From Stutzerimonas xanthomarina (lineage in GTDB: Bacteria; Pseudomonadota; Gammaproteobacteria; Pseudomonadales; Pseudomonadaceae), in contig NZ_RHQM01000020.1 in NCBI RefSeq assembly GCF_003935375.1, positions 1 through 64,000 of the forward strand: 64,000 nucleotides of DNA. The letters run 5' to 3'. Made by a program: the position numbers and the translations under genes. Below are positions 20,112-35,027 of the stretch, piece after piece. The notes beneath the pieces were generated by a model, which saw nothing but the letters and a program-made list of their open reading frames with translations, did not search any database and was not told the origin of the DNA. How positions within the stretch are numbered: the first letter of the stretch is position 1; each line of letters opens with the position of its first letter.

Positions 20112-21353
20112 ATGACCGTGGCTCATCCTTCTTCCGCGCGTTCCAGCCTTCGTTGGCTGCTCATCATCCTCGCCGTAGCTGCCATCGGGCTGCTGGTCTG
20201 GTGGCTGTGGCCTGCACCTCAGGAAACCCCTCAGCGGCCGGGCGGGCGTCCGGGCTTCGGCGCGTTTGGCGGGCCTGTGCCCGTGCGCGTGGCCAAGGTG
20301 GAACAGGGTGAATTCGAGGTCTTCAACAAGGCGCTCGGCAGCGTGACGCCGTTGAATACCGTCAATCTGCGCAGCCGGGTCGGTGGCGAGCTGCTCGAGC
20401 TGCGTTTCGAAGAGGGGCAGCGTGTCAAGAAGGGCGATCTGCTGGCGGTGATCGACCCACGTCCATACAAGGTCGCGTTGCAGCAAGCAGAGGGCACCTT
20501 GCAGCAGAACCGCGCCCAGCTGAAGAACGCGCAGGTGGACTTCGAGCGCTATCGCGGCCTCTACGCCGACGACAGCATTGCCAAGCAGACGCTGGATACC
20601 CAGGAAGCGCTGGTCAGCCAGTACCAGGGCACGCTGGCTGCCAATCAGGCGGCGGTCAACGAGGCGCGCCTGAATCTCGAGTTCACCCAGATTCGCTCAC
20701 CCATCGATGGTCGGGTCGGCCTGCGTCAGCTCGATGTAGGCAATCTGGTCACGGCCAACGACACCACGCCGCTGGTGGTGATCACCCAGACCCAGCCGAT
20801 GTCCATCAGCTTCACCTTGCCCGAGGGCGAGTTGCTGCCGGTGCTCACCCGCTATCGCCAGGGCGATCAGCTGGCCGTGCAGATCTGGGATCGCGGTGAA
20901 AAGATCCAGTTTGGCGAGGGCGTGCTGGAGAGCATTGATAACCAGATTGATGCGACTACCGGCACGCTGCGCCTGAAGGCGCGTTTCGACAATGAAGCGG
21001 AGCTGCTGATCCCCAACCAGTTCGTCAACGTGCGCCTGAGGGTGGAGACCCTGCGTGACGCCGTGTTGATTCCGTCTGCGGCGCTGCAGTTCGGTTCGCG
21101 CGGCACCTTCGCCTATGTCGTCGGCGACGACAACAAGGTTGAGCTGCGGACGCTGCAGGCCGGGCCTACCAACGGCGCGACCACGGTGGTGCTCGAGGGC
21201 TTGAAGGTGGGCGAGCGGGTGGTGATGGAAGGCACCGACCGACTGCGCGATGGCGCTGAAGTGGAGGTTGTCGGCAGCCAACGCATGGCCGAGCAGGCAG
21301 CGGAAAATCCGGTGCTCGGGGGCGGTGAGGCTGCGGAGCGCGAAGAGCGATGA
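20112..21353 (+). CDS. muxA: RND efflux periplasmic adaptor (MuxA/MdtA)
   Basis: A 413-residue membrane fusion protein. An N-terminal membrane anchor (residues 14-32, [18 protein letters not shown]) is followed by a lipoyl/hairpin region with a long coiled coil ([20 protein letters not shown] and on) and beta-barrel segments. It links the two RND permeases to the outer-membrane channel. It heads a muxA-muxB-muxC-opmB cluster equivalent to E. coli mdtABC or P. aeruginosa muxABC-opmB, which exports novobiocin, aztreonam and other drugs. The ATG at 20112 has a weak ribosome site; a TTG at 20055 is less likely. The stop overlaps the muxB ATG by four bases. A CpxR-like box lies upstream. Confidence 0.9.
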
Positions 21354-24300
21354 ACATCTCGCGGTTGTTCATCCTGCGACCGGTTGCGACCACGCTGAGC
21401 ATGATCGCAATCCTGCTGGCAGGACTGATCGCCTACAAGCTGCTACCGGTGGCAGCACTACCGCAGGTGGACTACCCGACAATCCGGGTGATGACGCTTT
21501 ACCCCGGCGCCAGCCCCGAAGTCATGACCAGCGCCGTTACCGCACCGCTGGAGCGCCAGTTCGGGCAGATGCCGGGGCTCGAGCAGCTGTCATCCACCAG
21601 CTCCGGCGGCGCTTCGGTGATTACCCTGCGTTTCTCGCTGGACGTGGCGCTGGATGTGGCCGAGCAGGAAGTGCAGGCCGCGATCAACGCGGCGAACAAC
21701 CTGCTGCCCAACGATCTGCCGGCGCCGCCGGTGTACAACAAGGTCAACCCGGCCGACACGCCGGTGCTGACCCTGGCCGTGACGTCCGAATCGCTGCCGC
21801 TGCCCAAACTGCATGATCTGGTCGACACGCGCATGGCGCAGAAACTGGCGCAGATCAACGGCGTAGGCATGGTCAGTATCGCCGGTGGCCAGCGGCCGGC
21901 GGTGCGTATCCGCACCAACCCGGAAGCACTTGCCGCGTACGGCCTTTCGCTGGCTGACGTGCGCTCGCTGATCACCAGCTCCAACGTCAACCAGCCCAAA
22001 GGCAACTTCGACGGCCCGACCCGGGTGTCGATGCTCGACGCCAACGACCAGCTGAAGACGCCTGAGGAATATGCCGAGCTGATCCTCACCTATGAGGATG
22101 GCGCCGCGCTGCGGCTTAAGGATGTCGCCGACATCATCGACGGCGCTGAGAACGAGCGCCTCGCGGCCTGGGCCAACGAGAGCCAGGCGGTGCTGCTCAA
22201 CGTCCAGCGCCAGCCCGGTGCCAATGTCATCGACGTGGTCGAACGCATCCAGGCGCTGCTGCCGGAAGTGACGGCCAGCATGCCGGCCGGCCTGGATGTG
22301 GTGGTGCTCACCGACCGTACCCAGACCATCCGCGCCGCCGTAACCGATGTGCAGCATGAGCTGATGCTCGCCACCTTCCTGGTGGTGATGGTCACCTTTG
22401 TCTTTCTCAAGAAGCTCTCGGCCACGGTGATCCCGTCAATTGCCGTGCCGCTGTCACTGGTCGGCACCTTCGCGGTGATGTACGTCTGCGGTTTCTCCCT
22501 GAACAACCTGACCTTGATGGCGCTGACGATTGCCACCGGCTTCGTGGTGGACGATGCCATCGTCATGCTGGAGAACATCGCGCGGCATCTGGAAGAGGGC
22601 GAGACACCACTCAATGCCGCGCTCAAGGGTGCCAGGCAGATCGGCTTCACGCTGATTTCGCTGACCTTCTCGCTGATCGCCGTGCTGATCCCGCTGCTGT
22701 TCATGCAGGACGTCGTCGGCCGGCTGTTCCGCGAGTTCGCCATCACCCTGGCGGTGGCCATCCTCATCTCGCTGGTGGTCTCGCTGACCCTGACGCCAAT
22801 GATGTGCGCCAAGCTGCTCAAGCCGCACAGTGTCGCCGAGGCCAAGCCGGACTGGGTCGAGCGGTTGATCGGCGGCTACTCGCGCTGGCTGACCTGGGTG
22901 CTGCGCCACCAGACCCTGACCCTTCTGGTCGCGGTGGCCACGCTGGGGCTGACGGTGGTGCTCTATCTCGCCGTACCCAAGGGGTTCTTCCCGGTGCAGG
23001 ACACCGGCGTTATCCAGGGCATCAGCGAGGCGCCCCAATCGATCTCCTTCCGCGCTATGAGCGAGCGCCAGCAGGCGCTGGCACGGGTGATCCTCACCGA
23101 CCCGGCGGTGGACAGTCTGTCGTCCTATATCGGTGTGGACGGCGACAACGTCACGCTCAACAGCGGCCGCCTGCTGATCAATCTCAAGCCCCACGGCGAG
23201 CGAGACCTGACTGCCAGCCAGATTATCGACCGGCTGCGACCGGAGCTGGCCAAGGTGCCAGGTATCGAGCTGTACCTGCAGCCGGTGCAGGATCTGTCCA
23301 TCGAGGACCGGATCAGCCGCACGCAATTCCAGTTCAGCCTCGAGACGCCGGACGGCGAGCTGCTGCAAGAGTGGACGCCGCGGCTGGTCGAGGCGCTGCG
23401 CGAGCGGCCGGAGCTGACCGATGTGGCCAGCGACCTGCAAAGCAGCGGCCTGCAGATCTATCTGGACATCGACCGCGACGCCGCGGCGCGCCTGGGCATC
23501 CAGGTCGCGGATATCACCGATGCGCTGTACGACGCCTTCGGCCAACGGCAGATTTCCACCATCTTCACCCAGGCCAGTCAGTACCGCGTGGTGCTGGAGG
23601 CAGAGGCGGGCAACCGCCTCGGTCCGCAGGCGCTGGAGCAACTATTCGTGCAGAGCGAAAGTGGCACGCCGGTGCGATTGTCGAGCCTGGCGACGCTGGA
23701 GCAACGCAACGCGCCCTTGCTGATCAACCATATCGGCCAGTTCCCGGCGGTGACCCTGTCGTTCAACCTGGCCAGCGGCGTGTCGCTCGGCAAGGCGGTG
23801 GAAGTGATCGAAGCGGTGGAGCAGGAGATCGGCCTGCCGGCCGGTATCCAGACGCGTTTCCAGGGTGCGGCCGAGGCCTTCCGCGCCTCGCTGTCGAGCA
23901 CGCTGCTGCTGATCCTCGCCGCGGTGGTGACCATGTACATCGTGCTCGGCGTGCTCTACGAGAGCTATATCCACCCGATTACCATCCTCTCCACGCTGCC
24001 CTCGGCGGCGGTCGGCGCCTTGCTAGCCTTGTTGCTGACCGGTAACGACCTCGGGCTGATCGCGATCATCGGCATCATCCTCCTGATCGGCATCGTCAAG
24101 AAGAACGCGATCATGATGATCGACTTCGCCCTGGAGGCCGAACGGCAGCAGGGCATGAGTCCGCAGGATGCGATCTATCGCGCGGCGCTGCTGCGTTTCC
24201 GGCCGATCCTGATGACCACGCTGGCGGCGCTGTTCGGTGCGATTCCACTGATGCTGGCATCCGGCTCCGGTGCCGAGCTACGCCAGCCGCTCGGCCTGGT

Positions 24301-24430
24301 GCTGGTCGGCGGTCTGCTGCTCAGCCAGCTGCTGACGCTGTTCACCACACCGGTGATCTATTTGTTCTTCGATCGGCTCGGCCAGCGCTTTGCCCGCAAG
24401 GACGAAGTGGGACAGGGGGTTGGAGCGTGA
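21350..24430 (+). CDS. muxB: RND multidrug permease MuxB (MdtB type)
   Basis: A 1026-residue inner-membrane RND transporter with 12 membrane segments and two large periplasmic loops. The proton-relay Asp pair is in [13 protein letters not shown] (about residue 400) and the partner Lys in [16 protein letters not shown] (about residue 920). It opens [18 protein letters not shown], typical of the MdtB class. The pump works as a heteromultimer with the second permease MuxC, which lies 163 bases downstream. Between the two genes is a tandem heptamer repeat. The 4-base overlap with muxA points to translational coupling. Confidence 0.93.
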
Positions 24431-24435
24431 GTGTC

Positions 24436-24576
24436 GAGCTGGAAGCTGGAAGCTGGAAGCTGGAAGCAGAGCAATGCGTGCATGCTGGAAAGCGCCCGAT
24501 ATTGGCCAAAACGGGTGGTCACTCCGTTCTGTCGGCAGCAGGCATTGCCACGAGCCGTGCTTTTAGCTTCCAGCTC
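24436..24576 (+). repeat. GGAAGCT heptamer repeat with distant inverted copy, between muxB and muxC
   Basis: Four tandem copies of GGAAGCT, the last one imperfect, run from 24441 to 24468, preceded by GAGCT. A single inverted copy AGCTTCCAGCTC lies at 24565-24576 and is fully complementary to 24436-24447 across 117 bases. Next to it CCCC-TCT-GGGG (about 24573-24585) forms a small hairpin whose GGGG is the likely muxC ribosome site. No gene is seen in the 163-base gap. Confidence 0.7.
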
Positions 24577-24593
24577 CCCTCTGGGGCGCAACC

Positions 24594-27500
24594 ATGAACC
24601 TTTCCGCTCCCTTTATCGCCCGTCCCGTGGCGACCATGTTGCTCAGTCTGGCGATCCTGTTGCTGGGTGGCGTCAGCTTCGGCCTGCTGCCGGTATCGCC
24701 GCTGCCGAACATGGATTTCCCGGTAATCACCGTGCAGGCCAGCCTACCCGGCGCCAGCCCGGAGATCATGGCCTCCAGCGTCGCGACCCCACTGGAGCGC
24801 TCGCTGGGCAGCATCGCCGGCGTCAGCCAGATGACCAGTCGCAGCAGCCAGGGCTCGACGCGGATCATCATCCAGTTCGACCTGGACCGCGAGATCAATG
24901 GCGCCGCCCGCGACGTGCAGGCGGCCATCAACGCCGCGCGCAACCTGCTGCCAAGCGGCATGCGCAGCATGCCCACCTACCGCAAGATCAATCCGTCCCA
25001 GGCACCGATCATGGTGCTCTCGCTGACCTCGGACGTGCTGGACAAGGCCGAGCTGTACGACATCGGCTCGACCATCCTGGCGCAGAAGCTGTCGCAGGTG
25101 TCCGGCGTCGGCGAAATCCAGGTCGGCGGCAGCTCGCTGCCCGCCGTGCGCATCGAGCTGCAGCCGCAGCAGCTGGAGCAATACGGCGTGTCGCTGGATG
25201 AAGTGCGCCAGACCATCGCCAACGGCAACGTGCGCCGACCCAAGGGCATGGTCGAGGACGCGGACCGCCACTGGCAGGTTCGCGCCAACGATCAGCTGCA
25301 CGAGGCGGCCGACTACACACCGCTGATCATCCGCTACCAGGACGGTGCAGCGCTGCGCCTGGGTGATGTCGCAAAGGTGCGCGATTCGGTGGAGGACCGC
25401 TACAACAGCGGCTTCTTCAACAACGAGCAGGCCGTGCTGCTGATCGTCAATCGCCAGGCCGGCGCCAACATCATCGAAACCATCGAGGGCATCCGCCGCG
25501 AACTGCCAGCGCTGCAGGCGATCATGCCCGGCAGCGTCGATCTGAACATCGCCATGGACCGCTCGCCGGTGATCCGCGCCACGCTGCACGAGGCCGAACG
25601 CACGCTGCTGATCGCGGTGGCGCTGGTCATCGTGCTGGTGTTCCTGTTCCTCGGCAGCCTGCGTACTGCATTGATCCCGGCGCTGGCAGTGCCGGTGTCG
25701 CTGGTCGGTACCTTCGCCGTGATGTACCTGTTCGGCTTCTCGCTGAACATCCTCTCGCTGATGGCGCTGATCCTGGCCGCAGGCCTGGTGGTGGACGACG
25801 CCATCGTGGTGCTGGAGAACATCGCCCGGCATATCGACGACGGCATGCCGCCGTTGAAGGCCGCCTACGTCGGCACCCGCGAAGTCGGTTTCACGTTGCT
25901 GTCGATGAACCTCTCACTGGTGGTGGTATTCGTCTCCATCCTCTACATGGGCGGCATCGTCGAGCGGCTGTTCCGCGAGTTTTCGATCACCCTGGCGGCG
26001 GCGATTCTGGTCTCGCTGCTGGTTTCGCTGACGCTGACACCGATGCTCTGCGCGCGCTGGCTCAAACCGCATCAGCCCGCGCAGGAAGGGCGCCTGCAGC
26101 GCTGGAGCCACCAGGCCCATCAGTGGCTGCTGCGTCACTACGACCGGTCGCTGAGCTGGGCACTGCGGCACCGTCGCATCACGCTGCTGAGCCTGCTGGC
26201 GACCATCGCGCTGAACGTGGTGCTCTACGTGCAGGTGCCAAAGACCTTCCTGCCGCAGCAGGACACCGGCCAGCTGACCGGCTTTATCCGCGGTGATGAC
26301 GGCCTGTCCTTCCAGGTCATGCAGCCGAAGATGGAAGTCTTCCGCAAGGCGGTGCTGGCGGATCCGGCGGTGGAGAGCGTGGCGGGCTTCATCGGCGGGC
26401 AGGGCGGCATCAACAACGCCTTCATGATCGTGCGCCTCAAACCGCTGAGCGAGCGGAAGATTTCGGCGCAGAAGGTCATCGAGCGCATCCGCAAGAACCA
26501 GCCCAAGGTGCCTGGCGGGCGCATGTTCCTCATGGCCGATCAGGACCTGCAGTTCGGCGGTGGCCGGCAGAGCAGCTCGGCCTATTCCTACACGCTGCTG
26601 GCGAGCGACCTGAACGACCTGCGCACCTGGGTGCCGCGGGTCACCCAGGCACTGTCGGCGCTGCCGGAACTGACCAGCATCGACGCCAATGACGGCGAGG
26701 GCGCGCAGCAGATCAGCCTGAAGATCGATCGCGATGCGGCCAAGCGTCTGGGCATCGACATGAGTACGGTGACCACGCTGCTCAACAACGCCTTCAGCCA
26801 GCGGCAGATTTCCACCATCTACGAATCGCTCAACCAGTACCAGGTGGTGATGGAGATCGATCCGAGCTACGCGCAGTACCCCGAGGTGCTGGAGCAGATC
26901 CATATCATCACCGAGGATGGCCGGCGCGTGCCGCTCGCCGCGTTCGCCCGCTACGAACGCAGCCTGGAGGAGGATCGGGTCAGCCACGACGGGCAGTTCG
27001 CTGCGGAGAACATCGATTTCGACCTCGCGCCTGACGTCAGCCTCGATCAGGCGACCCTGGCCATCGAGCGCGCGGTAGCCGCCATCGGCATGCCGAGTGA
27101 GGTGCAAGGACGCCTTGGCGGCACCGGCAGCGCCTTCGAGAGCACTCAGCAAGGCCAGCCACTGATGATTCTCGGCGCCTTGCTGCTGGTCTACATCGTG
27201 CTGGGCATCCTCTACGAAAGCTACATCCATCCGCTGACCATTCTCTCGACACTGCCATCGGCCGGGGTCGGCGCGCTGCTGGCGATCATCCTTACCGGCG
27301 ACCAGTTCAGCCTGATCTCGCTGCTCGGGCTGTTCCTGCTGATCGGCGTGGTGAAGAAGAACGCGATCCTGATGATCGACCTGGCGCTGCAGTTCGAGCG
27401 CAACGACAGGCTGTCGCCCGCCGATTCGATCCATCGCGCCTGCCTGCTGCGTTTCCGGCCGATCCTGATGACCACCATGGCTGCCATTCTCGGCGCGCTG

Positions 27501-27698
27501 CCGCTGCTGCTCGGCGGCGCGGAGGGCGCCGAGATGCGCCAGCCGCTGGGTCTGACCATCATCGGCGGTCTGCTGCTGAGCCAGATCCTGACCCTCTACA
27601 CCACGCCGGTGGTCTATCTGTACCTGGACCGCCTGCGTCATCGTTTCAACAGCTGGCGCGGTGTTCGCACCGATGCCGCCCTGGAAAACCCGCTATGA
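24594..27698 (+). CDS. muxC: RND multidrug permease MuxC (MdtC type)
   Basis: A 1034-residue RND permease, clearly paralogous to MuxB but of the MdtC class (MNLSAPFIARPVATMLLSL). The Asp pair is in GLVVDDAIVVLEN (about residue 400) and the conserved Lys in LIGVVKKNAILMIDLA. It should combine with MuxB in one trimeric pump. The ribosome site GGGGCG is partly enclosed in a short hairpin that follows a repeat element, so its translation may be tuned against muxB. The ATGA overlap at 27695-27698 couples it to the outer-membrane gene. Confidence 0.93.
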   Translation: MNLSAPFIARPVATMLLSLAILLLGGVSFGLLPVSPLPNMDFPVITVQASLPGASPEIMASSVATPLERSLGSIAGVSQMTSRSSQGSTRIIIQFDLDREINGAARDVQAAINAARNLLPSGMRSMPTYRKINPSQAPIMVLSLTSDVLDKAELYDIGSTILAQKLSQVSGVGEIQVGGSSLPAVRIELQPQQLEQYGVSLDEVRQTIANGNVRRPKGMVEDADRHWQVRANDQLHEAADYTPLIIRYQDGAALRLGDVAKVRDSVEDRYNSGFFNNEQAVLLIVNRQAGANIIETIEGIRRELPALQAIMPGSVDLNIAMDRSPVIRATLHEAERTLLIAVALVIVLVFLFLGSLRTALIPALAVPVSLVGTFAVMYLFGFSLNILSLMALILAAGLVVDDAIVVLENIARHIDDGMPPLKAAYVGTREVGFTLLSMNLSLVVVFVSILYMGGIVERLFREFSITLAAAILVSLLVSLTLTPMLCARWLKPHQPAQEGRLQRWSHQAHQWLLRHYDRSLSWALRHRRITLLSLLATIALNVVLYVQVPKTFLPQQDTGQLTGFIRGDDGLSFQVMQPKMEVFRKAVLADPAVESVAGFIGGQGGINNAFMIVRLKPLSERKISAQKVIERIRKNQPKVPGGRMFLMADQDLQFGGGRQSSSAYSYTLLASDLNDLRTWVPRVTQALSALPELTSIDANDGEGAQQISLKIDRDAAKRLGIDMSTVTTLLNNAFSQRQISTIYESLNQYQVVMEIDPSYAQYPEVLEQIHIITEDGRRVPLAAFARYERSLEEDRVSHDGQFAAENIDFDLAPDVSLDQATLAIERAVAAIGMPSEVQGRLGGTGSAFESTQQGQPLMILGALLLVYIVLGILYESYIHPLTILSTLPSAGVGALLAIILTGDQFSLISLLGLFLLIGVVKKNAILMIDLALQFERNDRLSPADSIHRACLLRFRPILMTTMAAILGALPLLLGGAEGAEMRQPLGLTIIGGLLLSQILTLYTTPVVYLYLDRLRHRFNSWRGVRTDAALENPL

Positions 27699-30411: not shown

Positions 30412-31860
30412 TCACATTTCTGCGCGACCTCCCTCGGACTGCAACTGCTCTGCCGCGGCCGTTCGCGGCGTCTGCTCGGGGACTTCCCAGCCACCGCCAA
30501 GGGCCTTGTACAGCGCCACCACCCCGCGATAGAGCTCCACTTCGGCTTGCGCCTGAGCGTCTTCGGCCGTCAGGCGCTCGCGCTCGGCATCGAGCAGCAC
30601 GAGGAAATTGGCAGTGCCTTCGCGATAGCGGATCTCCGCCTGCTGCGCGGCGGCGCGGCTGGCTGTCGACTGACGGACCAAAGAAAGCAGGCGCTGCTGG
30701 GCGTTGGCGTAGTCGCTGAAGGCGTTCTCTGACTCTTCCAGTGCCAGCAATACCTGTTGCTCATAGCTGGCCAGCGCCGCATCGGCGTCGGCTTCGGCAC
30801 CACGCAGGCGGGCCCGCACGCTGCCCAGGTCGAATGCTGCCCAGCTGATGCTCGGCGCCACGCCCCAGGCCCGCGCCGCGCTGGAACCGATCTGCGAGCC
30901 GCGCCCGGCAACGAAGCCGAGAAAGCCCGACAGACTCACGCGCGGAAACAGGTCGGCCGTCGCCACGCCGACATCGGCAGTGGCCGCAGCCAGCTGGCGC
31001 TCGGCTGCACGAATGTCCGGGCGCCGGCGCAGCAGCTCGCCGGGATCGCCAATCGGTAGCGACTTGGCGATTGCCGGCAGCTCGCGGGGCGAGAGGTCGA
31101 CGCTGAGCTGATCGGCGCGCTGGCCGAGCAGGGTGGCGATGCGGTTGCGCGCACGCGCCTGCTGCGCCCTGAGCTGCGGCAGACTGGCTTCGGTGGCCGC
31201 CAGACGGGCATCGGCGCGCAGAACGTCGAGCTCGCTGCCGACGCCCGCTTCGCGAAGCTGTTCGGTCAGCTCATGGGAATTGCGCTGGTTGGCCAGGTTG
31301 TCGCGGGCGATGCGCTCACGCAGCTGGGCACCGCGCAGCTGACCGTAGGCATCCACCAGCTCGGCAATCAGGCTGACCTGCAGCTGGTAGAGCTCGGCCT
31401 CGACGGCATCGGCCTGCGCCTCGCTGGATTCCAGGCGGCGCTGGATGCGGCCGAACAGGTCCAGCTCCCAGGCCATGTCCAGCCCGAGGTCGTAGCGTTC
31501 GGCATTCACGCGCTGCTCGGTCACGCCGGGTTGCTGGGCCTTGCCGATATCGGCGCTGGCGCCCGCGGTGACGGTGGGCAGACGATCATTGCTGACGTCA
31601 TCGCGAATCGCCCGTGCGGCACGCAGGCGGGCATAGGCGATGCGCAGTTCGCGGTTCTCGGCCAGCGCTTCGCCGACCAGGGCATCCAGCGTCGGGTCTT
31701 CGAACTGCCGCCACCAGGCCGCTTCGAAACGCGAGCGGTCGTAATCGCCACTCGCTGCATGGCTGATGCGCGCCGGTTCCGGTTGCGGTGCCCGGTAATC
31801 CGGGCCGACCGCGCAGGCGCTCAGTGCCAGAGTGAGAAGGGAAAGGGCGAAGAACTTCAT
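30412..31860 (-). CDS. oprN: Outer-membrane efflux lipoprotein OprN-like
   Basis: A 482-residue TolC/NodT-family outer-membrane channel with a lipobox ending in Cys16 (LALSACAVGPDYRAP) and two helical-barrel repeats (REAGVGSELDVLRADARLA and RYREGTANFLVLLDAERERL). It is the exit duct of the MexEF-type pump. The start at 31860 overlaps the permease stop by four bases (ATGA); the longer reading to 32187 lies entirely inside the permease gene in another frame. Symbol by synteny with mexEF-oprN. Confidence 0.9.
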   Translation of the reverse strand: MKFFALSLLTLALSACAVGPDYRAPQPEPARISHAASGDYDRSRFEAAWWRQFEDPTLDALVGEALAENRELRIAYARLRAARAIRDDVSNDRLPTVTAGASADIGKAQQPGVTEQRVNAERYDLGLDMAWELDLFGRIQRRLESSEAQADAVEAELYQLQVSLIAELVDAYGQLRGAQLRERIARDNLANQRNSHELTEQLREAGVGSELDVLRADARLAATEASLPQLRAQQARARNRIATLLGQRADQLSVDLSPRELPAIAKSLPIGDPGELLRRRPDIRAAERQLAAATADVGVATADLFPRVSLSGFLGFVAGRGSQIGSSAARAWGVAPSISWAAFDLGSVRARLRGAEADADAALASYEQQVLLALEESENAFSDYANAQQRLLSLVRQSTASRAAAQQAEIRYREGTANFLVLLDAERERLTAEDAQAQAEVELYRGVVALYKALGGGWEVPEQTPRTAAAEQLQSEGGRAEM

Positions 31861-34800
31861 GCGCGGGCCTCCTTGTAAACCGCTTTGCGGGCTTCGCGTT
31901 TCTCGACGAAGGCACGAATCACCAAATAGAACACCGGGGTCAGCAACAGACCGAAGAAGGTCACCCCGAGCATGCCGCTGAACACCGCGACACCCATGGC
32001 ATGGCGCATCTCGGCGCCAGCCCCGCTGGAGAGCACCAGCGGCACCACGCCCATGATGAAGGCGAAGCTGGTCATCAGGATCGGCCGCAGACGCAGGCGG
32101 CAGGCTTCGAGGATGGCGGCCAGCCGATCCATGCCTTCTTCCTGCTTGTCCTTGGCGAACTCGACGATGAGGATGGCGTTCTTGCATGCCAGGCCCACCA
32201 GCACGATCAGGCCGATCTGGGTGAACACGTTGTTGTCGCTACCGGCCAGGATCACCCCGGTGATCGCAGAGAGCAGCGTCATCGGTACGATCAGGATCAC
32301 CGCCAGCGGCAGGCTCCAGCTTTCGTATTGCGCCGCCAGCACCAGGAAGGCCAGCAGCACGCAGAGCGGGAAGACGAAGATTGCGGTGTTGCCGGCAAGG
32401 ATCTGCTGGTATGTCAGCTCGGTCCATTCGTAGCTCATGCCATTCGGCAATTCAGCCTTGAGCAGGCGTTCCATGGCCGCCTCGGCCTGACCGGAGCTGT
32501 AGCCCGGCGCGGCCGCGCCGTTGATCTCGGCGGTGAGGAAGCCGTTGTAGTGCATCACCCGATCCGGGCCGGCGCTGTCGGTGACGTTGACGAAGGTCGA
32601 CAGCGGGACCATCTCGCCGCGGTTGTTGCGCACCTTCAGCTGACCGATCTGCTCCGGTGCCAGGCGGAACTTCTGGTCGGCCTGGACGTTAACCTGATAG
32701 GTGCGGCCGAAGCGGTTGAAGTCGTTGGCGTATAGCGAGCCGAGGTAAACCTGCATGGTGTCGAAGATCTCGTCGATCGGCACGCCGTGCGTCTTGGCTT
32801 TTTCCCGGTCGATGTCGGCATCCACCTGCGGCACGTTGACCTGATAGCTGGTGAACAGGCCGGCCAGCTCCGGATAGTCCGCGCTCTTGGCGATGACGTT
32901 CTGCACCTGGCTGTACAGCTCCTCGTAGCCGAGGTTGCCGCGGTCCTGCACCTGCACGCGGAAGCCGCCGATGGTGCCCAGGCCCTGTACGGGTGGCGGC
33001 GGGAAGATGGCGATAAAGGCGTCCTGGATCTGCGCGAACTGACCGTTGAGGTCCGCCGCGATGGCGTTCGCCGAGAGCGACGGGTCCTTGCGCTCATCGA
33101 AGGGCTTGAGCGGGGTGAATACGATGCCGCTGTTCGGGCTATTGGTGAAGCCGTTGATCGACAAGCCCGGGAAGGCCACGGTGTTCTCCACGCCCGGGTG
33201 CTTGCCGGCAATTTCCGACATGCGCTTGATCACGTCCTCGGTGCGGTCCAGGGTTGCGGCGTCCGGCAGTTGGGCGAAGGCGACCAGGTACTGCTTGTCC
33301 TGCGGTGGCACAAAACCGGTCGGCGTGCTGGCGAAGCCCATGTAGCCGAGGCCGACCAGTCCGACATAGACCACCAGCGCAATGCCGCTGCCGCGCAGGA
33401 TGCGCCGCACCAGGCCGACGTAACCGTGGCTGGCGCGGTCGAACATGCGGTTGAACGGCGCGAACAGCCAGCCGCCAAAAATCCGGTCAAGCAGACGCGA
33501 GAAGCCATCTTTTGGCGCGTCGTGCGACCTGAGGAGCGCAGCGGCCAGTGCCGGCGACAGGGTCAGCGAGTTGAAGGCCGAGATCACCGTGGAAATGGCG
33601 ATGGTCAGGGCGAACTGCTGGTAGAACTGCCCGGTGAGGCCGGAAATGAATGCGGTGGGAATGAACACGGCGCAGAGCACCAGCGCCGTGGCGACGATAG
33701 GCCCGGTCACTTCCTTCATCGCCTGCCGGGTAGCCTCCACCGGCGATTTGCCGAGGCCGATGTTCCGCTCGACGTTTTCTACTACCACGATGGCGTCATC
33801 CACCACGATGCCGATGGCCAACACCAGGCCGAACAGCGACAGCGCGTTGAGCGAGAAACCGAGCAGGTGCATGACCGCGAAGGTGCCGATCAGCGACACC
33901 GGCACCGCGGCCAGTGGAATGATCGAGGCGCGCCAGGTCTGCAGGAACAGGATCACCACCAGCACCACCAGCACGATGGCCTCGAGCAGCGTATGCACCA
34001 CTGCCTCGATGGAGCCGCGCACGAAGATGGTCGGGTCGTAGACGATCTCGTAGTCCACGCCTTCCGGGAAGTCGCGTTTCAGCTCGGCCATGCGTGCGCG
34101 CACCGAGTCGGAGATCTCGATGGCGTTCGAACCCGGGCGCTGGAATACCGGAATGGCGACGGCGGGCTGGTTGTTCAGCAGCGAACGCAGCGCGTACTGG
34201 CTGGAGCCCAGTTCGACACGGGCGATGTCCCGCAGGCGGGTGATCGAACCGTCTTCGCCGGCGCGGATGATGATGTTCTCGAATTCTTCCTCGGTGACCA
34301 GACGGCCCTGGGTGTTGATCGACAGCTGGAAGTCCGTCGCGCCCGGTGCCGGCGGTGCGCCCAGAGAACCTGCAGCGACCTGGCGGTTCTGCTCGCGAAT
34401 CGCGTTGACCACGTCCGATGCGGTGAGGTTGCGCGAGGCGACCTTCTCCGGGTCGAGCCAGACGCGCAGGGAGTAATCGCCCATGCCGAACAGCTGCACG
34501 TCACCGATGCCATCCAGCCGCGCCAGCTCGTCCTTGACGTTGAGTGCGGCGTAGTTGGACAGGTAGAGCATGTCGTAGCGCTGATCCGGCGAGGTCAGGT
34601 GCACCACCATGGTCAGGTCCGGCGAGGCCTTGTCCACGGTCACGCCGAGGCGCTGCACCTCGGTGGGCAAGGTCGGCATGGTGCGCGTGACGCGGTTCTG
34701 CACCTGCACCTGGGCGTTGTCCAGATCAGTGCCCAGGCCAAAGGTGATGGTCAGGGTCAGCTTGCCGTCGGCGGTCGCCTGGGACGACATGTAGAGCATG

Positions 34801-35027
34801 CCCTCGACGCCGGTGATGGCCTGCTCCAGCGGGGATGCGACGGTTTCGCCAATCACCTTGGGGTTGGCGCCGGGGAAGTTGGCGCGTACCACCACGGTGG
34901 GCGGGACGACTTCGGGGTATTCGCTGATCGGCAGCTGGAACAGCGAGATGGCCCCGCCGATGAGGATCACCAGCGACAGCACGGCGGCGAAAATCGGCCG
35001 CTTGATGAAGAATTGCGAGAAATTCAT
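31857..35027 (-). CDS. mexF: RND multidrug permease MexF
   Basis: A 1056-residue HAE1-family RND permease. Features are MNFSQFFIKRPIFAAVLSL at the start, the Asp pair in GIVVDDAIVVVENVERN (about residue 405) and the conserved Lys in GLACKNAILIVEFAKD. It exports chloramphenicol, trimethoprim, fluoroquinolones and quinolone-type signals in P. aeruginosa. GGAG lies about 7 bases before the ATG. It follows mexE by 97 bases and overlaps oprN by four. The whole block is under MexT in the known system, and the same neighbours are present here. Confidence 0.92.
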   Translation of the reverse strand: MNFSQFFIKRPIFAAVLSLVILIGGAISLFQLPISEYPEVVPPTVVVRANFPGANPKVIGETVASPLEQAITGVEGMLYMSSQATADGKLTLTITFGLGTDLDNAQVQVQNRVTRTMPTLPTEVQRLGVTVDKASPDLTMVVHLTSPDQRYDMLYLSNYAALNVKDELARLDGIGDVQLFGMGDYSLRVWLDPEKVASRNLTASDVVNAIREQNRQVAAGSLGAPPAPGATDFQLSINTQGRLVTEEEFENIIIRAGEDGSITRLRDIARVELGSSQYALRSLLNNQPAVAIPVFQRPGSNAIEISDSVRARMAELKRDFPEGVDYEIVYDPTIFVRGSIEAVVHTLLEAIVLVVLVVILFLQTWRASIIPLAAVPVSLIGTFAVMHLLGFSLNALSLFGLVLAIGIVVDDAIVVVENVERNIGLGKSPVEATRQAMKEVTGPIVATALVLCAVFIPTAFISGLTGQFYQQFALTIAISTVISAFNSLTLSPALAAALLRSHDAPKDGFSRLLDRIFGGWLFAPFNRMFDRASHGYVGLVRRILRGSGIALVVYVGLVGLGYMGFASTPTGFVPPQDKQYLVAFAQLPDAATLDRTEDVIKRMSEIAGKHPGVENTVAFPGLSINGFTNSPNSGIVFTPLKPFDERKDPSLSANAIAADLNGQFAQIQDAFIAIFPPPPVQGLGTIGGFRVQVQDRGNLGYEELYSQVQNVIAKSADYPELAGLFTSYQVNVPQVDADIDREKAKTHGVPIDEIFDTMQVYLGSLYANDFNRFGRTYQVNVQADQKFRLAPEQIGQLKVRNNRGEMVPLSTFVNVTDSAGPDRVMHYNGFLTAEINGAAAPGYSSGQAEAAMERLLKAELPNGMSYEWTELTYQQILAGNTAIFVFPLCVLLAFLVLAAQYESWSLPLAVILIVPMTLLSAITGVILAGSDNNVFTQIGLIVLVGLACKNAILIVEFAKDKQEEGMDRLAAILEACRLRLRPILMTSFAFIMGVVPLVLSSGAGAEMRHAMGVAVFSGMLGVTFFGLLLTPVFYLVIRAFVEKREARKAVYKEARA

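Follow-up and report, generated by a model that had tools for sequence, protein, structure and literature searches.

A heptad hairpin between muxB and muxC of Stutzerimonas xanthomarina is probably an imported copy of a dispersed intergenic repeat

The stretch of Stutzerimonas xanthomarina DNA analysed here (64,000 nucleotides, hereafter the window) carries on its + strand a muxABC-type operon, in which the TGA of muxB and the ATG of muxC are separated by 163 bp. This gap holds a tandem heptamer array, a spacer and an inverted array. The locus raises the question whether such an arrangement is a device that sets the ratio of two permeases or a copy of a dispersed repeat that came to lie between their genes. 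Concerning the identity of the permeases, MuxB passes the cut-off of NCBIfam model NF007798 (MdtB/MuxB); the best match of MuxC is NF007905 (MdtC), with a score under the cut-off of that model. Near the mux operon, a second RND permease gene lies on the - strand (31857-35027; RND_permease_1 above its cut-off, the OqxB model below its own) and is followed by an outer-membrane-factor-like ORF (30412-35027, - strand, for both together). The parts of the junction are the following:

21350..24430, + strand: muxB, the upstream one of the two RND permease genes; the presumed recombinant tract takes in its final 70-81 bp
24428..24430, + strand: TGA ending muxB; the heptad arm starts 5 nt further on, and in the lowest-energy fold pairing sets in at 24431
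24436..24468, + strand: 5' arm, a tandem heptad array (three GGAAGCT and one GGAAGCA)
24469..24558, + strand: spacer, paired in the predicted fold as the inner part of a rod
24559..24576, + strand: 3' inverted arm GCTTTTAGCTTCCAGCTC, three heptads fewer than in the orthologue of the relative G048
24576..24586, + strand: CCCC-TCT-GGGG, a local inverted repeat covering the probable Shine-Dalgarno sequence of muxC, with low predicted occupancy
24594..27698, + strand: muxC, the downstream RND permease gene, with its ATG at 24594
24350..24601 (outer limits; inner limits 24361-24592): presumed recombinant tract matching G048 in an S. kunmingensis-type background

The gap opens with GTGTC, followed by the array GAGCTGGAAGCTGGAAGCTGGAAGCTGGAAGC. 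An initial annotation had counted four copies of GGAAGCT. The array was borne out, but exact units are found only at 24441, 24448 and 24455, the fourth unit (24462-24468) being GGAAGCA. Tandem Repeats Finder (TRF) reports 24437-24467 with period 7, 4.4 copies and 100% matches, the top score among 16 rows for the window. An inverted copy, said to lie 117 bases on, is indeed present as AGCTTCC at 24565-24571, 97 nt past the end of the array and 117 nt from the start of its second unit; the fuller inverted arm measures 18 nt (24559-24576 against 24436-24453, 89% complementary). The CCCC-TCT-GGGG sequence described before muxC is found at 24576-24586. Directly behind the muxB stop a GTG-started ORF (24431-25201, + strand) reads the array out of the muxC frame, and gain or loss of one heptad would shift its frame.

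According to folding predictions, the muxB stop, the gap and the start of muxC form one rod of -76.1 kcal/mol, compared with a shuffle mean of -63.4 (z -2.67; one of 200 dinucleotide shuffles as good); a second computation on the gap set gave z -3.5. The opposite strand of the gap reaches z -3.31, with none of 200 shuffles as good. In these predictions the GGGG before muxC is mostly paired with varying partners, its unpaired probability being 0.01-0.10 within 24431-24640 and 0.17-0.53 within 24381-24660. The local CCCC/GGGG hairpin has a pair probability of 0.11-0.13 in two long contexts and of 0.38 without the 5' arm. In these models it competes with the rod and is a minor structure. CCCC-TCT-GGGG is kept in the window, in G048 and in strain 24a75, with one compensated change (C-G to U-A). 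Across 29 species, small hairpins before the muxC start were not enriched (13 versus a shuffle mean of 10.5; 40 of 200 shuffles had as many). The window gave no Rfam match at the gathering score, and three sub-threshold matches were judged to be due to chance.

These predictions bear on the proposal of a slippage-tuned regulator, in which heptad number and pairing over the Shine-Dalgarno sequence would set muxC translation. The MuxB:MuxC ratio would matter in a pump built like MdtBC, a relative of MuxBC that is reported as a B2C heterotrimer (in the part of PMC7015380 considered). Besides this stoichiometry, the strong predicted rod over the whole gap, the mostly paired GGGG and the retention of the Shine-Dalgarno hairpin in three close orthologues speak for a regulator. 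The minor share of that hairpin and its lack of enrichment speak against it, as do several comparisons below, and we regard an evolved regulator as quite unlikely. The rod might also be read as an intra-operonic terminator or attenuator of transcription. A stable hairpin would suit this; a scan for terminators and promoters, however, detected nothing in the gap, its single terminator-like match (24342-24356) being inside muxB, and the spacer is long for the loop of an intrinsic terminator. Together with the gene settings described below, this makes a terminator very unlikely.

Junctions of relatives were compared in a set made up of the best 80 of 140 relatives matching the muxC start. The two genes overlap by 4 bp in 30 of them; the distance between them is 10-52 bp in 20 and 85-187 bp in the other 30. 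Other heptads form the arms in further long gaps: GCAAGCT/AGCTTGC in L044, L045 and L061 (the muxC start of L061 is uncertain by 15 nt), GGAGGCT/AGCCTCC in L048, L054 and L063, and TTCAAGC-type arms in P. graminis and its kin. In the long gaps of L053, L055, L057, L059 and L062 a 5' heptad arm is not clearly recognisable, and several contain a different palindrome instead, so that a long gap does not equal a heptad hairpin. The gaps of L057, L059 and L053 carry a GATGGGTGCAACCCATC-like palindrome where a clear 5' heptad arm would stand. Those of L072 (187 bp) and L075 (181 bp) resemble a pair of heptad-hairpin units, either adjacent or one within the other. On a muxC tree built by a quick method, the class of the gap, long or short, changes 14 times, at least 11 of them on starred branches, and the window is nested among short-gap relatives. 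On this comparison the junction is labile. Such frequent switching (at least 11 times) does not fit a regulator of muxC well.

Unit number varies between orthologues, as a regulator would have it. The first arm has four units in the window and in G048 and three in strain 24a75; the gap measures 163 bp in the window and 184 bp in G048, and the 21-bp difference corresponds to three heptads of the second arm. The initial annotation held that the heptamer count can change by slippage. The count does differ between orthologous junctions, but all differences found are between species, whereas a phase-variable repeat would be marked by counts that vary among isolates of one species and alter expression; slippage is a conjecture about the origin of the differences.

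The two arms of one species match each other better than arms taken from different species do. In 25 long gaps, own arms gave a mean of -39.4 kcal/mol and arms swapped between species -33.2 (permutation sd 1.25); none of 20,000 permutations, which ignore relatedness, was as low. These 25 were retained out of 32 long gaps after removal of similar ones at about 75% by alignment score. Nineteen of the 25 beat their own swapped median and six do not, and six foreign arms pair better with the 5' arm of the window than its own shortened arm does. For 14 of the 32 long gaps the fold z is above -2.

How the element came to lie in this genome is suggested by the mosaic structure of the region. Residues 1-333 of MuxC are identical to those of six kunmingensis-type relatives (L033-L038), and the flanking DNA is 94-99% identical. 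These relatives have a 28-bp gap and a MuxB C-terminus different from that of the window; flanks so nearly identical without the element are a further point against a regulator. At 235 sites the six agree with one another and differ from G048; the window sides with the six at 193 of these and with G048 at 42. Most of the latter, 31 sites, fall in one run (24361-24592, with a single exception, 24585), and the nearest informative sites on either side of it, 24349 and 24602, are kunmingensis-like. A further eleven G048-like sites form small runs elsewhere in muxB and muxC (22849-23038, 26006 and 26846-26864). Tract sites inside the gap depend on an alignment that is arbitrary against a 28-bp gap, and it is the sites in the tail of muxB that carry the case. 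Two types of MuxB end, RARKDEVGQ-like and RRREPL-like (window 24361-24430), track the long and the short gap in the nearest relatives. The simplest reading is that a tract of 232-252 bp was probably acquired by recombination from a G048-like donor.

The idea that a dispersed repeat had landed here, put forward initially as an alternative, gained support from searches of other genomes and from this mosaic tract. A genome-wide search for further GGAAGCT arrays gave a divided answer. In the 4.66-Mb genome to which the window belongs, GGAAGCTGGAAGCT is found at this site alone (backwards control 0), as is expected of an import, and relaxing the pattern brings in two more, isolated sites; it is in its relatives that tandem 7-bp units recur across the genome. 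Of 56 Stutzerimonas genomes, 28 (the present one included) contain GGAAGCTGGAAGCTGGAAGC, a run just short of three units, with 1 to 113 overlapping matches per array-bearing genome (backwards control 0). Across the family, 83 of 248 genomes and 8 of 19 genera contain the degenerate triplet GCTKSAAGCTKSAAGCTKSAAGC, again with a backwards control of 0.

Arrays were placed relative to genes predicted by a home-made codon scorer trained on eight ORFs of the window. The sample is non-random: it consists of first-listed or best-scoring places, counts orthologous sites and, for one element (L025), each of the two arms, and omits the array of the window as a duplicate of that of G048. The 100 loci yielded 67 distinct arrays with a minimum of three units, and none lies within a predicted gene; with the looser two-unit pattern, one of 69 cases (L139) does. 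Forty-five arrays stand between co-directional genes, 16 between convergent and four between divergent ones, and two are at a contig end or unresolved; the 39 gene pairs of the window comprise 31 co-directional, four convergent and four divergent. The convergent and divergent settings (16 and 4 of 65) speak for a terminator, the 45 of 65 arrays between co-directional genes against it. That arrays adjoin many other genes likewise counts against a role specific to muxC. Where a gene reads towards a GGAAGCT array, the array begins a median of 6 bp (n = 17) or 6.5 bp (n = 16) past the stop codon. Arrays of opposite sense (n = 28) have their outer end a median of 45.5 bp from the start of the neighbouring gene, so closeness to a stop codon is true of one orientation only. 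A strict pattern detected heptads in inverted sense no more than 140 nt past the array in 27 of 68 cases (0 in one shuffle) and in direct sense in seven; by eye, a less regular inverted arm, for example CTTCCAGCTTCAGGCTTCCAGC, follows many more.

Some elements at different sites resemble each other beyond their arrays. When cores were compared (47 of 65 sites kept; earlier, three of 68 had been dropped, two as too short near a contig end and one as the second arm of an element already represented), 28 of 820 non-orthologous pairs scored at least 14, as against 0-2 in five shuffles. The top pairs reflect an embedded GTAGGGTGGATG palindrome, a separate repeat. These shared cores indicate that part of the heptad family has spread by copying. 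Judged from the sequences, copying to new sites holds for some elements, of which the muxB-muxC copy may or may not be one. Near-full-length matches to the present element numbered five among the matches listed (at most 15 candidates scored per genome), all at muxB-muxC junctions, those of G048 and G035 (the same as L043) included. In plasmid records, the 20 matches listed of 31 all correspond to the coding end of muxB homologues. At six loci (L013, L017, L026, L027, L154 and L176) a separate palindrome, GTAGGGTGGATG or close kin followed by a CATCCACC-like stretch, stands directly behind the heptad array; from its GTAG foot we take it to be REP-like.

Dispersal, inverted ends and the cores common to some non-orthologous sites would also be expected of a miniature transposable element mobilised in trans, for example by a REP-associated Y1 transposase. 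Y1_Tnp scores over its cut-off in 23 of 28 array genomes and in 13 of 28 others (Fisher p 0.011, ignoring relatedness). Three genomes with 21-38 array matches (G002, G045 and G046), however, have no Y1_Tnp at E 0.001, the best core pairs belong to the separate GTAGGGTGGATG palindrome, and inspection by eye of one alignment between filled and short junctions revealed no target-site duplication. We consider such an element unlikely. The genome of the window itself has one Y1_Tnp match, below cut-off.

Among the matches listed in open-licence papers, none describes these arrays in Pseudomonas or Stutzerimonas. By analogy, the described repeats closest to these are the GGGAATC heptamers that lie between genes in Xanthomonas, as presented in the parts of PMC4692102 examined; the two are alike in anatomy, and the present arrays fall outside the quadruplex class, since GGAAGCT has no run of three G and the quadruplex property of the GGGAATC type is absent. 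According to the same parts of that paper, the Xanthomonas heptamers and the GGGGA(C/T)T heptamers of Nostoc are dispersed, mostly intergenic and on average 28 nt behind the upstream gene, often form inverted pairs (70 and 75 cases), are few between divergent genes, vary in length between species and have no identified role. The mux-gap heptads have in common with them the 7-bp unit, dispersal, intergenic position (0 of 67 arrays in predicted genes), a place close behind the upstream gene (33 arrays, median 6-6.5 bp past the stop), inverted pairs, rarity between divergent genes and a length that varies from species to species. The unit differs, being GGAAGCT or kin here, and arms matched within a species with a unit differing between lineages are absent from the parts of PMC4692102 examined. 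In the same bacterial family, P. fluorescens has intergenic repeat families (R0-R200, IR1_g/REP) that measure 50-352 bp (PMC2718517, in part). These are likewise short, dispersed and intergenic, and several have inverted ends; as described there, they are set apart by the lack of a heptad array and by mostly tail-to-tail gene settings, in contrast to the co-directional ones here. The TAACTGA heptamers of Beggiatoaceae are also intergenic tandem heptamers and have been proposed to act on translation (PMC4679880, in part). In the sections considered, they lie mostly just upstream of start codons in the main species, and all sets but one are direct, whereas those here are inverted.

Taken together, the element at this junction is probably a heptad hairpin of a dispersed, intergenic kind that was imported by recombination and may have a side effect on muxC rather than being an evolved switch. 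Such an element would sit immediately past a stop codon and consist of a 7-bp tandem array and, beyond a spacer, the same unit arrayed in inverted orientation. It would have entered this genome by homologous recombination, as about 0.24 kb from a G048-like relative. Units may be gained and lost by slippage, and the likeness of the arms may be maintained by hairpin-templated correction or by common descent. In the mRNA a long rod would follow right after the muxB stop, uncouple muxC translation from muxB termination, and possibly slow, steer or otherwise change RNA decay. REP hairpins near stop codons make an effect on translation or RNA decay plausible. Such an effect is most likely a tolerated side effect, since the gap class changes often, arrays stand beside many other genes and the local hairpin is minor. 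An altered MuxB:MuxC ratio could still matter, given the B2C heterotrimer reported for the kindred MdtBC.

A bolder reading, to which we give little credence, is that these elements form a family-wide class of evolving junction cassettes. They would time and again take the place of translational coupling between co-directional genes, rely on template-switch correction for the likeness of their arms, pass from species to species in short recombination tracts and thereby reset operon stoichiometry with most proteins untouched. Natural junction variants on near-identical flanks offer a way to study operon spacers in a two-permease pump, and lineage-specific arms a way to study how inverted repeats stay matched. 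The findings point to a dispersed, fast-changing intergenic repeat of Pseudomonadaceae.
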